From: Cytophaga aurantiaca DSM 3654
GTDB taxonomy: Bacteria; Bacteroidota; Bacteroidia; Cytophagales; Cytophagaceae
Length of the DNA: 64,000 nt
NCBI RefSeq assembly: GCF_000379725.1
Contig: NZ_KB903663.1
Span: 62,001-126,000 of the forward strand
Direction: 5' to 3'
Shown here: piece by piece, positions 28,518 through 32,491 of the stretch
Position numbering within the stretch: position 1 is the first letter of the stretch
Layout: each line of letters opens with the position of its first letter
The notes under the pieces: generated by a model
The model's input: only the letters and a program-made list of their open reading frames with translations
What the model was told of the DNA's origin: nothing
Database searches by the model: none
Translations under genes and position numbers: made by a program

Positions 28518-28976
28518 ATGAACAACAACGATATCCTTCGACGCTTACGCTATACATTCGATTTCAACGATGATAAAATGATTGCACTTTTTGCATTGGC
28601 AGATCAGACAGTCACCCGTGAAGAGATCAGTAATTGGATGAAGAAAGATGACGACCCGGATTTTAAAGAATTATACGATAAAGAGCTCGCAGTATTTTTA
28701 AATGGCTTTATCATCGACAAGCGCGGAAAGAAAGATGGACAAGCACCGGTGAATGAAAAAAGTTTGAACAACAACATCATTTTCAGAAAGCTAAAAATTG
28801 CACTAAATCTACAGGACGATGACATACTTGATATATTAGATTTAGCAGGTTTGCGTTTTGGCAAACATGAATTGAGTGCGCTTTTTAGAAATCCAAATCA
28901 GAGCCAATTCCGCCCTTGCAAAGATCAGGTGTTGCGTAATTTCATTCACGGACTGCAATTAAAGTATCGTCCATAA
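28518..28976 (+). CDS. DUF1456 (YehS-like) protein
   Basis: 152 residues made of two similar halves, each with an LRRLRYTFDFND or FRKLKIALNLQD start followed by helical segments. This is the double-repeat layout of YehS/DUF1456. The first half has MIALFALADQTVTREEISNWMKK and the second DILDILDLAGLRFGKHELSALFR. The protein is cytoplasmic and of unknown function. The gene is alone, 113 bp after the NUDIX gene with family D repeats between. Confidence 0.87.
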   Translation: MNNNDILRRLRYTFDFNDDKMIALFALADQTVTREEISNWMKKDDDPDFKELYDKELAVFLNGFIIDKRGKKDGQAPVNEKSLNNNIIFRKLKIALNLQDDDILDILDLAGLRFGKHELSALFRNPNQSQFRPCKDQVLRNFIHGLQLKYRP

Positions 28977-29080: not shown

Positions 29081-29665
29081 ATGGAAAATGCATCTGTTGC
29101 AATTAAAGAATGGGTTGAACTTTATACCTCAGAGATGGTATCCTGGGCGTATTATAAAACCTCTCAACAAGAAACCGCCGAAGACCTTGTACAGGAAACA
29201 TTTATCGCAGCTTTTCAATCGTTCCACACATTTGAAAATAAAAGTAAACCTAAGACATGGCTTTTTTCAATTCTCAAAAATAAGATCATCGACCATCACC
29301 GAAAATGTTATAGAGATGCAGTTCTGCCCGCCAACAAAGTAAGTGAAGAATACAGTGCCAATTTATTTGGTTTTTTATTTGAAGCCGATGGACAATGGAA
29401 AAAAGATCGGAAAAATATAAATTGGGGTACAGATACCGAAGAATTATTAGATAATCCGGAATTCAATGTAGTTTTAGCAGATTGTTTGAATAGATTGCCT
29501 GCAAGCTGGAATGCTGCAATGCAATTGAAATATCTCCAGGAAAAAGATCAAAAAAATATTTGTCAGGAATTAGAAATTTCTGCGACTAATTACTGGCAGA
29601 TCATTCATAGAGCTAAATTGCAGCTTAAAGCCTGCTTAGAAAATTATTGGTTTAAAAATGAATAA
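29081..29665 (+). CDS. ECF sigma-70 family factor
   Basis: 194 residues from the ATG at 29081 (MENASVAIKEWVELYTSEMVSWAYYK); a TTG-type start at 29024 is not needed. Region 2 contains TAEDLVQETFIAAFQSF and TFENKSKPKTWLFSILKN, and region 4 ends the protein with NRLPASWNAAMQLKYLQEK and ELEISATNYWQIIHRAKLQ. These are the marks of an extracytoplasmic-function sigma factor. It overlaps the next gene, a ZAS anti-sigma factor, by eight bases and precedes the KCG-peptide operon that it most likely controls. Confidence 0.9.
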   Translation: MENASVAIKEWVELYTSEMVSWAYYKTSQQETAEDLVQETFIAAFQSFHTFENKSKPKTWLFSILKNKIIDHHRKCYRDAVLPANKVSEEYSANLFGFLFEADGQWKKDRKNINWGTDTEELLDNPEFNVVLADCLNRLPASWNAAMQLKYLQEKDQKNICQELEISATNYWQIIHRAKLQLKACLENYWFKNE

Positions 29666-29933
29666 AAATAATCCGTTTGTAGTTTCATGTGAGAAATCGA
29701 GTTTTTTAATAGAAAAAAAACTTGCGGGTGCTCTTTCGATGAAAGAACACAGTCAATTATTTATTCATAAGCTGATCTGTGATGTTTGCAGAAAATATGA
29801 AAAGCAAAGTATCTTATTAGATAACCTGCTTCGCAAAAAGATTGCCGGTAATAATTCTACTTCACCTTCGGCAAATATAGATCAAAACAGGATAGAAAAG
29901 CTCAAATCAACGATTTTGGGCAAATTGAAATAA
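29658..29933 (+). CDS. ZAS-type anti-sigma factor
   Basis: 91 residues. It carries HKLICDVC, i.e. Hx3Cx2C (His37, Cys41, Cys44), the zinc-binding core of the anti-sigma domain. A further Cys at 11 (SCEKSS) may be another ligand. No membrane span is present, so it is a soluble anti-sigma. In the family, oxidation or loss of zinc releases the sigma factor; binding of copper or thiol stress at these Cys is a reasonable idea here but is not shown. It overlaps the sigma gene by eight bases. Confidence 0.75.
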   Translation: MNKNNPFVVSCEKSSFLIEKKLAGALSMKEHSQLFIHKLICDVCRKYEKQSILLDNLLRKKIAGNNSTSPSANIDQNRIEKLKSTILGKLK

Positions 29934-29958
29934 TTTTTTTTAAAAAAATAACATTTTT

Positions 29959-29988
29959 TGTCAGGATGTATAGAAAGCTACGACTATA
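29959..29988 (+). promoter_or_regulatory. Candidate ECF-sigma promoter of the KCG-peptide operon
   Basis: TGTCAGGA (29959-29966) and CGACTATA (29981-29988) are separated by 14 bases and stand about 38 bases before the ATG at 30027. The layout resembles ECF-dependent promoters. It is the only promoter-like sequence in the 93-bp gap. The proposed pairing with the upstream sigma factor is an inference. Confidence 0.4.
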
Positions 29989-30026
29989 CATTTGAAATTA
30001 ATTTTTAAACACAAAAAATTACAACA

Positions 30027-30320
30027 ATGGTTAAAAAATCAAAAAGCATTTTATGGACTGCAGTAGCTGCAGGTGCAATGTTAGGCGCAACAAGTATTTT
30101 CTCAAGCTGCAGCACTGAATCTAAAGAAGTTACTACAGAAGTTAAAGCGGATAGCGCTGAGCACAAATGTGGTGCTGAAACAAAATGTGGCGCTAGCAAA
30201 GATTCTGCTGAAGCTAAATGTGGTACAAGCAAAGACTCTGTTGAGGCTAAATGCGGCGAGCACAAAACTACTGAAGCTAAATGTGGCGAAGGTAAGTGTG
30301 GTGCTGACAAAAAGAAATAA
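30027..30320 (+). CDS. Cys-rich precursor peptide with six KCG motifs (bufferin/HvfA-like)
   Basis: 97 residues. The N-terminus (MVKKSKSILWTAVAAGAMLG, ending ...SIFSSC) is a signal sequence with a possible lipobox Cys at residue 28. The mature part has seven Cys at 28, 48, 54, 65, 76, 86 and 91. The last six each sit in KCG, and the last reads EGKCG, the core motif of HvfA-type bufferin peptides. The rest is Lys, Glu, Ala and Ser. Such peptides are ribosomally made and modified by MNIO enzymes into copper-binding forms in the periplasm. The enzyme genes follow directly. The number of motifs here looks high. Confidence 0.8.
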   Translation: MVKKSKSILWTAVAAGAMLGATSIFSSCSTESKEVTTEVKADSAEHKCGAETKCGASKDSAEAKCGTSKDSVEAKCGEHKTTEAKCGEGKCGADKKK

Positions 30321-30330
30321 TTTTGTCTGA

Positions 30331-30358
30331 AGGCGGAGAGTCTTCTCCGCCTTTTTTT
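30331..30358 (+). terminator. Attenuating terminator between precursor and enzyme genes
   Basis: AGGCGGAGA (30331-30339) pairs with TCTCCGCCT (30344-30352) across GTCT and is followed by a T-run. It lies 10 bases after the precursor stop and before the MNIO gene. Partial read-through would give more precursor than enzyme. Confidence 0.85.
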
Positions 30359-30379
30359 ATTAACCTAATCTGTATTATC

Positions 30380-31213
30380 ATGGTTGGTATTGGTTTCAGA
30401 AAAGATTTTGCAAAAGACTTCTTAAGCACTACAACACTTAGGCCCGACTTCATTGAAGTTGCGCCGGAGAATTGGATTGGCATTGGTGGCTTCTGGAAAA
30501 AAAAGCTGCATGAAGCATTAGAAAAATATCCGTTATATACCCATGGATTATCTTTATCTATAGGTAGTCCGGACGAGTTGGATTTTGAATTATTAAAAGG
30601 AGTTAAGAAATTTTTAACAGAAACAGGTGCATGCGTATACTCTGAACATTTGAGTTATTCCAAATGCGACAATGCACATGTATATGATTTATTACCTATC
30701 CCATTTACATCCGATGCTGTGAAGCATATTTCCAAACGTATACAAACTGTTCAGGATTTTCTTGAACGCAAAATTGCTATTGAGATTGTAAGCTATTACT
30801 CTCCTGTTGCAGCAGAGATGAGTGAAATAGAATTTGTAAATGCAATCCTTGAAGAAGCCGATTGCGATCTATTACTTGACGTGAACAATATTTATGTAAA
30901 CGGTTTTAATCATGCATATAATCCAAATACATTTATCGATGCACTTCCGCTAGAACGTGTTGCTTATATCCACATGGCAGGCCACGATCAGGTTTCGGAA
31001 ACATTGATCATAGATACACACGGTGAAGCAATCATAGACCCGGTGTATGATCTTTTTGAATATACAATGAATCAACTTCAACGTGACGTGCCTGTTTTGC
31101 TGGAACGGGATTTTAATATTCCTCATCTTTCAGAATTGCAGCATGAAATGGATCGGTTAAAAAAAATAAAAGTAACCAGCTTAACAAAAGAATTTCATGG
31201 CATACATCGATAG
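30380..31213 (+). CDS. DUF692 multinuclear iron oxidase (MNIO), bufferin-modifying enzyme
   Basis: 277 residues from the ATG at 30380; a TTG at 30323 would have to start before the terminator hairpin and is rejected. The fold is the TIM-barrel of DUF692. Visible metal-type residues are His55 in THGLS, His90 in SEHLSY, Glu135 in IEIVSYY, Asp168 in LLLDVNN, His198 in IHMAGH, the His214 region in IDTHGE, and Glu242 in LERDF. These enzymes use two or three irons to convert Cys residues into oxazolone or thiooxazole groups (MbnB, BufB). Its end overlaps the next gene by 17 bases. Confidence 0.88.
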   Translation: MVGIGFRKDFAKDFLSTTTLRPDFIEVAPENWIGIGGFWKKKLHEALEKYPLYTHGLSLSIGSPDELDFELLKGVKKFLTETGACVYSEHLSYSKCDNAHVYDLLPIPFTSDAVKHISKRIQTVQDFLERKIAIEIVSYYSPVAAEMSEIEFVNAILEEADCDLLLDVNNIYVNGFNHAYNPNTFIDALPLERVAYIHMAGHDQVSETLIIDTHGEAIIDPVYDLFEYTMNQLQRDVPVLLERDFNIPHLSELQHEMDRLKKIKVTSLTKEFHGIHR

Positions 31214-31949
31214 TACACAGAAGTACCAGCGTATGCTCTCCAATTATACGCGTACAGGTATTGAAGCAAAAATCCCCGGCACAAAACAGGAAGGCATTGC
31301 GCGTTACAGAACAATGATCTACAACGTAGTCAATGATTCTTTATCAACAGCTTATCCATTAGCTAAAAAACTTCTTACAAAAGATGAATGGGATAATATG
31401 GTGCAGCATTATTTTTCTTCGCATGCATGTGTATCTCCCTATTTATGGAAAATGCCATTCGAGTTTTTCGAATTTGTAAAAGAGAATGAATCCGAACTTC
31501 TAACGAAATATCCTTTCTTAAGCGACCTTTTGCTTTATGAATGGGTAGAAATTGAAGTATTCATGATGGAAGATGTGGAAGTATCGTTTTCCAAAATTGG
31601 ATCTATTGCCTCAGACGCTCTTGTATTAAACCCTTCATGTATCTTGCAATATTTTCAATATCCTGTTTATAGCAAAGTAGCAACAGAGATCACATCTTCT
31701 AATCAAGCACATTATTTTATGCTTACGCACCGTAATCCAGAAACAAACCTCGTTCGGTTTATGGAAGTAGCGCCAATGTTTGCCCGCATGATCGAATTGC
31801 TTGATGAGAGACCATTCACAATTGAAGAATTGACAAATCAATTTTCTACTGAATCAAAAATAGAAATATCTCAAACCATAAAAACGAACATTGAATCTTT
31901 TTTTAAAAAATGTCTAACAAAAGAAATTATTCTTGGTTTCAAAAATTAA
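31197..31949 (+). CDS. DUF2063 (BufC/HvfC-like) partner protein
   Basis: 250 residues. The N-terminal half contains GIARYRTMIYNVVNDSLSTAYPLAKKLL, the DUF2063 domain thought to bind the precursor peptide for the MNIO partner. The C-terminal half is a second helical domain. In the known operons of this type the MNIO enzyme and this protein act as a pair. It overlaps the MNIO gene by 17 bases, which points to coupled translation, and is followed 18 bp later by the DoxX gene. Confidence 0.85.
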   Translation: MAYIDSTQKYQRMLSNYTRTGIEAKIPGTKQEGIARYRTMIYNVVNDSLSTAYPLAKKLLTKDEWDNMVQHYFSSHACVSPYLWKMPFEFFEFVKENESELLTKYPFLSDLLLYEWVEIEVFMMEDVEVSFSKIGSIASDALVLNPSCILQYFQYPVYSKVATEITSSNQAHYFMLTHRNPETNLVRFMEVAPMFARMIELLDERPFTIEELTNQFSTESKIEISQTIKTNIESFFKKCLTKEIILGFKN

Positions 31950-31967
31950 CTTTTTAAACAATACATT

Positions 31968-32408
31968 ATGTTTCCAGAAAAAATTAAAATCGCTTATCAT
32001 AACTATGTAGCGGGTACTGCAAAGCTTCAGAATCTATCTCTATTATTGATCCGTCTGGTATTGGCATACGGCTTTTATAATCCCGCACTGATGAAAGTTA
32101 AAAATATAGATGGCATCATTGCCTGGTTCGCAAGTATGGGTATGCCTATGCCAGCTTTGAATGCATATCTAGCTACCACAACGGAATTGCTAGGCGTGTT
32201 ATTATTAACATTAGGTCTGGGAGTCCGCCTCATTACAATTCCATTGATCATTACTATGATCGTAGCAATTGCTACTGTGCATTGGAGTCATGGATTTGAA
32301 GCAGGAAATAATGGCTTTGAAATTCCTTTATATTATCTCTTGATGTTATTTGCGCTCTTAACATTCGGCGCAGGAAAATACAGCTTAGACGCGGCAGCGA
32401 AAAAATAA
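31968..32408 (+). CDS. DoxX-family membrane protein (BufD-like)
   Basis: 146 residues with four membrane spans typical of DoxX: LSLLLIRLVLAYGFYNPALMK, then LGVLLLTLGLG, LITIPLIITMIVAIATV and LYYLLMLFALLTFGAG. DoxX proteins are often the last gene of such operons (HvfABCD, BufABCD). The role there is unknown; a link to electron transfer or peptide export has been suggested. It is the last gene of the unit and is followed by a strong terminator at 32434-32464. Confidence 0.85.
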   Translation: MFPEKIKIAYHNYVAGTAKLQNLSLLLIRLVLAYGFYNPALMKVKNIDGIIAWFASMGMPMPALNAYLATTTELLGVLLLTLGLGVRLITIPLIITMIVAIATVHWSHGFEAGNNGFEIPLYYLLMLFALLTFGAGKYSLDAAAKK

Positions 32409-32433
32409 TACCTATAGTTTATTTTCGAAATCA

Positions 32434-32464
32434 AACACCAGCTTTCTTGTCAAAGGCTGGTGTT
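32434..32464. terminator. Terminator of the KCG-peptide operon
   Basis: AACACCAGC (32434-32442) pairs with GCTGGTGTT (32456-32464), with further A/T pairs outside. It sits between the operon and the convergent kinase gene and probably stops both. Confidence 0.85.
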
Positions 32465-32491
32465 TTGATTTTAAACGAATATTTTTGTTTT

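Follow-up and report, generated by a model that had tools for sequence, protein, structure and literature searches.

Several regulated systems for copper-binding ribosomally synthesized and post-translationally modified peptides (RiPPs) have been described. In Neisseria meningitidis the genes NMB2140-2145 form one sigma-E-controlled operon that includes the zinc-type anti-sigma (ZAS) factor MseR, with a like arrangement in gonococci (PMC2893595). In Haemophilus influenzae the hvf operon is under the control of an extracytoplasmic function (ECF) sigma factor, RpoE2/HrsE, which acts in trans; hypochlorous acid (HOCl) induces the RpoE2-dependent hvf genes (PMC7907618). The products of such captophorin clusters are 5-thiooxazole peptides that bind Cu(I) (PMC13097082, PMC13419390). 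Here we describe a related locus in a stretch of 64,000 nucleotides from Cytophaga aurantiaca DSM 3654 (NZ_KB903663.1, positions 62,001 to 126,000), hereafter the window. Six co-directional genes fill its positions 29081-32408 and encode, in order, an ECF sigma factor, a ZAS-type anti-sigma factor, a precursor with Lys-Cys-Gly (KCG) motifs, a multinuclear non-heme iron-dependent oxidase (MNIO; HvfB), a DUF2063 protein (HvfC) and a DoxX protein (HvfX). The gene set itself has been described before, in Neisseria and Haemophilus; what appears to be new is a copy of the putative sigma-dependent promoter motif within the sigma gene of Bacteroidota.

The Neisseria rpoE operon comprises the same six gene types, its ZAS factor shares the ligand spacing C-x25-HxxxCxxC with the one here, and its promoter consensus GTMAGBWTT/CGTCTAAH (PMC2893595) fits the motif found here, with the agreement extending over the flanking letters. 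However, the Neisseria sigma gene lies downstream of the sigma-dependent promoter in a self-amplifying arrangement, whereas here it lies upstream of both motif sites. The gonococcal locus has the order DoxX-precursor-MNIO-DUF2063-sigma-ZAS, and its sigma gene has no internal motif; the record that carries it (NZ_CP119140.1, 2.17 Mb) has the size of a whole N. gonorrhoeae chromosome, though the plasmid collection lists it as a plasmid. The Haemophilus system likewise combines a ZAS-controlled ECF sigma factor with the same RiPP operon (hvfABCX, oxazolin) and an HvfA with six Cys sites, but its sigma factor is encoded at a separate msrAB locus and works in trans, whereas in the present locus the sigma/anti-sigma pair stands at the head of the RiPP operon. 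With the fontiphorin, oxazolin and gonophorin clusters the present locus shares a KCG-repeat precursor, an HvfB-type MNIO, a DUF2063 partner and DoxX. In contrast to the chemically characterised captophorins, which come from Pseudomonadota, it belongs to Bacteroidota and has a sigma/ZAS pair in cis and a lipobox precursor. The sigF-NrsF system of Caulobacter also links an ECF sigma factor to an MNIO operon (Buf1 bufferins) and to metal stress, but with a DUF2282 precursor and an NrsF anti-sigma factor, neither of which was found here. The elements on which the comparison turns are:

29081-29665, + strand: ECF sigma factor, TIGR02943-like, RpoE2/SigE type (194 aa; Pfam Sigma70_r2 2.3e-17, Sigma70_r4_2 1.3e-7)
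29561-29586, + strand: intragenic copy of the sigma promoter motif (TGTCAGG-N15-CGAC; spells the region 4.2 residues CQELEISAT; the anti-sigma ATG follows after 71 nt)
29658-29933, + strand: soluble ZAS-type anti-sigma factor (91 aa; C11-x25-H37-x3-C41-x2-C44; 8-base overlap with the sigma gene)
29959-29984, + strand: predicted promoter of sigma-dependent type for the precursor gene (42 nt upstream of its ATG; TGTCAGG-N15-CGAC)

The motif, TGT[AC]AGG-N15-CG[AT]C (general form TGT[AC]AGG-N15-CGNC), was defined by eye from the regions upstream of precursors, where it is conserved in most captophorin loci, including loci without an adjacent sigma gene. Given that it was defined from precursor promoters, finding it within a coding sequence counts as independent of that definition. 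Across 530 kb of sigma loci it gave 70 matches, versus 2 with a reversed control. The internal copy is present at the same place in the sister species, and 53 of 107 Bacteroidota loci in all have it at these codons. It might be supposed that protein constraint alone produces this copy, the CQE...AT residues of region 4.2 being needed for DNA binding and written in ordinary codons, and the site indeed lies within the conserved helix-turn-helix, where C, K/Q and E are common. However, when synonymous codons were sampled from local usage, 1.0 copy was expected among the 60 sigma genes of the first set, against 24 observed (non-redundant, 18 of 45 against 0.81; P about 2e-24), and a held-out draw of Bacteroidia gave 29 of 47 (non-redundant, 24 of 37 against 0.69; P about 2e-39); non-redundancy here is a 70% identity filter and not a full phylogenetic model, and all P values in this study are nominal, as the loci are related and their relatedness was ignored despite that filter. 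A scan for synonymous bias over 184 codon columns ranked three motif codons at the top, namely 168 (G, z=8.2), 162 (G, 5.7) and 161 (T, 4.4). Residue 168 itself differs among species (T, P, A or S), whereas its codon is always NCG wherever the motif is kept, and this fixation of the third base also speaks against a protein-level origin, as does the absence of the motif from the loci described next. The codon test thus largely refutes protein constraint as the source of the copy, and we regard that explanation as highly improbable.

The internal copy is found in 53 loci and a copy upstream of the sigma gene in 8, and no locus has both (P=0.003). Furthermore, it occurs in 52 of 98 sigma genes with an anti-sigma gene directly downstream, versus 0 of 8 without one (P=0.006; loci truncated at a contig end were not counted). 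At the present locus there is no exact motif in the 300 bases upstream of the sigma gene, and the start of the sigma gene precedes both motif sites. The simplest reading is that the internal copy would act as a sigma-dependent promoter for the anti-sigma gene. It could instead hold back transcription of the sigma gene by binding sigma-RNA polymerase as a decoy, pause or roadblock; although the site has the right orientation and complete promoter-like elements, we consider this unlikely, as the site is absent where no anti-sigma gene lies downstream, the stretch between it and the anti-sigma gene has a length suited to a 5' untranslated region, and the one precedent found is an active promoter. 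That precedent, PrshA of Corynebacterium glutamicum, lies inside sigH, has been shown to depend on SigH and drives the anti-sigma gene rshA (PMC3489674), and hence the principle of an internal anti-sigma promoter is established. It is the sole precedent that we found in the open-access literature. In both cases a sigma-type promoter inside the sigma gene would serve a ZAS anti-sigma gene only, giving negative feedback, here as judged by sequence. However, the Corynebacterium case concerns an actinomycete, another promoter consensus and a single organism, whereas here the conservation is at the codon level and extends across the phylum; phylum-wide codon-level conservation of such a promoter was not found in the open-access text searched. 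Taken together, it is reasonably probable that, across the Bacteroidota, the genes of a redox-type ECF sigma family are dual-coding, in that the codons of the region 4.2 helix-turn-helix would also be the gene's own promoter driving the anti-sigma gene, a hard-wired negative feedback that would in this case govern copper-peptide production. The new element would be a codon-level, evolutionarily maintained overlap of the DNA-binding domain of a sigma factor with the promoter that it recognises.

For the locus as a whole we think it likely that it is a stress-switched operon for a captophorin (a Cu-associated thiooxazole peptide) with an internal anti-sigma promoter. Under unstressed conditions the soluble zinc-type anti-sigma factor would hold the ECF sigma factor, and thiol oxidation or metal attack on its C/H/C/C zinc site would release it. 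The free sigma factor with RNA polymerase would initiate transcription in two places, one ahead of the precursor gene and the other within the 3' end of the sigma gene. Transcripts from the former would cover the precursor and, by partial read-through of a terminator, the MNIO, HvfC and DoxX genes, and those from the latter would supply extra anti-sigma factor. Given that the sigma gene lies upstream of both sites, such a circuit would provide negative feedback with no self-amplification of the sigma factor. In the cytoplasm HvfB and HvfC would turn the cysteines of the Lys-Cys-Gly motifs into 5-thiooxazoles, and the peptide would then be exported, here probably as a lipoprotein, and bind Cu(I) or another thiophilic metal in the envelope.

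The sigma factor reaches 141 bits (2.9e-41) against the NCBIfam model TIGR02943, under its cut-off of 162. The original prediction, made from the sequence of the window alone, had taken it for a dedicated regulator of the peptide operon, which holds at most locally: the same sigma/anti-sigma family elsewhere adjoins genes for MsrA/B, MsrP, cytochrome b561, AhpC/TSA and DUF417, and linkage to captophorin genes has switched 5-12 times along the sigma tree. On account of these switches we rejected a captophorin-specific sigma lineage. Elsewhere in the family the motif precedes DUF417-MsrA/B, DUF1223 or peroxiredoxin genes, or the sigma gene itself, and the site thus belongs to the sigma family rather than to captophorins specifically. 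On Klebsiella and Burkholderia plasmids the neighbours are as in Bacteroidota, namely genes for methionine-sulfoxide repair, thioredoxin/CcdA and peroxiredoxin. In five loci the sigma/ZAS pair is followed by DUF417 (RclC-like) and MsrA/B genes with the motif before DUF417, an arrangement that looks like a methionine-oxidation/hypochlorite-response operon; the sigma genes of these loci retain the internal motif except for its first base (AGTCAGG). Eight further loci have sigma/ZAS pairs close to that of the window, no captophorin genes, and rhodanese-like and undescribed genes as candidate targets. A larger genome-wide regulon was dropped as a candidate, since the strict pattern gave 4 matches in the present genome (G000) and 3 in genome G002, no more than the reversed control. 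One exact motif (G000:C2:244496-244521) stands about 45 bases before the gene of a DsbD_N protein, which is followed by that of a DsbD_TM-thioredoxin protein. It may be either a chance match or a recent regulon member, and as it is degraded in the sister species we do not claim it for the regulon.

The original prediction had also proposed a zinc- or thiol-type anti-sigma factor, and this is supported by the protein family. The spacing of its ligands conforms to ZAS class I (C/H-x23-26-H-x3-C-x2-C), and the four ligands are the sole invariant columns among 18 anti-sigma proteins; the match to NF052368 (4e-8) lies below the cut-off. A ZAS-type protein is encoded beside the sigma gene in 98 of 106 loci, 97 of them with the x25 spacing, and just 2 of the 98 have a transmembrane-like segment, which makes this a soluble family. 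Given the soluble anti-sigma factor with its invariant zinc-type ligands and the redox-repair neighbours, our preferred trigger is a cytoplasmic one, thiol or metal attack. A different weighting of the same facts would make the system chiefly an oxidant (HOCl/thiol) response, with a peptide that guards against oxidants or other metals and not copper. This is suggested by the Msr, cytochrome b561, AhpC/TSA, DUF417 and rhodanese neighbours of the sigma family, by the HOCl induction of hvf in H. influenzae (PMC7907618) and by the match before the DsbD-like operon, though that match is not retained in the sister species. On the other hand, Cu(I) binding is known for related thiooxazole peptides, and in many cases copper or gold induces the clusters that encode them (PMC13097082). 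We hold a chiefly oxidant-directed role to be possible but somewhat less than probable. Copper itself attacks thiols, and to that extent the oxidant and copper readings overlap.

Besides the nominal character of the P values, several points weigh against the stress-switched, dual-coding operon that we prefer. The exact internal motif is missing from about half of the sigma family. The fold model of the anti-sigma factor is all-helical with a moderate predicted local distance difference test score (pLDDT 75), and its best PDB match, RsiW in the zinc form, is weak (E=1.0); a profile search of the protein also gave a weak match to RsiW (0.15). The precursor has no LGSGxxxR segment, which most of its relatives have, and may need a different recognition by HvfC. 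Finally, in meningococci neither H2O2 nor diamide nor singlet oxygen elicited a sigma-E response (PMC2893595), which makes the inducer uncertain.

The remaining features of the locus are as follows:

30027-30320, + strand: HvfA-type precursor (97 aa; six KCG; lipobox-like FSSC28; NF050137 KCGExKCG_twice 36.1 bits, cut-off 19.5)
30329-30354, + strand: intrinsic terminator hairpin in the precursor/MNIO gap (11-bp stem and T run)
30380-31213, + strand: MNIO (DUF692) of the HvfB family (PF05114 3.6e-97; NF003818 HvfB 385.5, cut-off 360)
31197-31949, + strand: DUF2063/HvfC partner, PME-type 1 with RiPP recognition element (17-base overlap with the MNIO gene; PF09836 59.9, cut-off 27.2)
31968-32408, + strand: DoxX/HvfX membrane protein (PF07681 1.9e-19; NF050144 HvfX 132.2, cut-off 80)
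32433-32465, + strand: probable operon-end terminator (13-bp stem, then a weak T run)

All the parts that had been predicted are present, including both gene overlaps, the 91-residue anti-sigma factor and the 97-residue precursor with its six KCG motifs. The original prediction did not name the terminator between the precursor and MNIO genes, the promoter-like site ahead of the precursor or the motif copy within the sigma gene. The cluster is of the HvfABCX/captophorin (HvfA/oxazolin, EGKCG) type, as the HvfA, HvfB and HvfX models of NCBIfam and the DUF2063 models of Pfam all score above their cut-offs. The HvfC protein also matches NGO1945_C (45.5 against 27) and falls marginally below the HvfC equivalog NF050145 (138 against 142); a sequence search of it against the PDB gave no match at 0.001. 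The precursor combines a hydrophobic N-terminus bearing the FSSC lipobox with six KCG motifs, in keeping with the signal-bearing, KCG-repeat precursor expected of a captophorin cluster, and the search with an HvfA-type profile that had been proposed for it succeeded (NF050137, above). The true start of the MNIO is the ATG at 30380. In an alignment with structure 3BWW it keeps the catalytic N, D and H, and the DVNN, DTHGE and His/Glu segments are conserved; in HvfB, N175, D242 and H244 are essential residues. The Hvf half of the original label "Bufferin/HvfABCD-type" is accordingly retained and the Buf1 half discarded. Sigma factors have been reported within Buf1 clusters, but in profile searches the precursor has no match to DUF2282, the anti-sigma factor has none to NrsF and bears the ZAS motif instead, and the MNIO fits HvfB (385/360) better than BufB (265/310). 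We rejected a Buf1 operon with an NrsF-regulated sigma factor on these scores, and consider it extremely improbable. Two features are not new. The joining of a sigma module to such an operon is anticipated by the six gene types of NMB2140-2145 and by the drive of hvf in trans by RpoE2/HrsE, and the precursor is not unusually repeat-rich, as HvfA likewise carries six sites, up to nine occur in relatives, and a precursor with 58 Cys is the longest on record. Given that lipoprotein-type oxazolin precursors have already been predicted (PMC12636315), the lipobox is a variant and no novelty either.

Structured RNA (z of -2.5 or lower) was detected in the precursor-MNIO gap of 26 of 28 captophorin loci, and the hairpin seen here would be consistent with an output of precursor exceeding that of the enzyme. 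Two Chitinophaga loci have many TTGGCAGT-type direct repeats in this gap, versus a single hairpin elsewhere. The genome carries one MNIO of the HvfB kind and one KCG precursor. Upstream of the sigma gene lies a DUF1456 gene (window 28518-28976) that is kept in the sister species; it was not seen beside other captophorin loci and is not part of the cassette.

The Bacteroidota membership of the cassette, expected by the original prediction, is supported, and its sigma/anti-sigma link is conserved. The same order occurs in a genome of the same genus and recurs in many Bacteroidota genomes with sigma identities of roughly 40-64%, including, with unrelated flanks, Chitinophaga, Carboxylicivirga, a Draconibacterium metagenome-assembled genome (MAG), several Flavobacteriales MAGs and further Bacteroidota families, which shows that the arrangement is not due to chance. 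The operon is nevertheless uncommon, HvfB scoring above its cut-off in 7 of 395 sampled Bacteroidota genomes. Another genome of the genus (G001) has neither the MNIO nor this sigma factor at the thresholds used, and the presence of the entire cassette hence varies within the genus. In three loci the sigma gene is not adjacent, and the promoter motif still precedes the precursor. One genome (G064) has a captophorin operon in permuted order, in which the gene of the ZAS anti-sigma factor stands at the operon end, behind DoxX, and not behind the sigma gene. Its sigma gene has no internal motif, which matches the prediction of the model.

These observations extend the stress-induced copper-RiPP system of Neisseria and Haemophilus to Bacteroidota, in which a phylum-wide form has its sigma/ZAS switch in cis, and the promoter motif offers a means of finding regulon members. 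The overlap predicts two circuit designs within one family, with negative feedback only where the site is internal and self-amplification where it lies upstream of the sigma gene, and the family thus allows a direct comparison of the two. If the dual-coding reading is true, the DNA-reading domain of the sigma factor and the DNA that it reads would be one and the same stretch of sequence.

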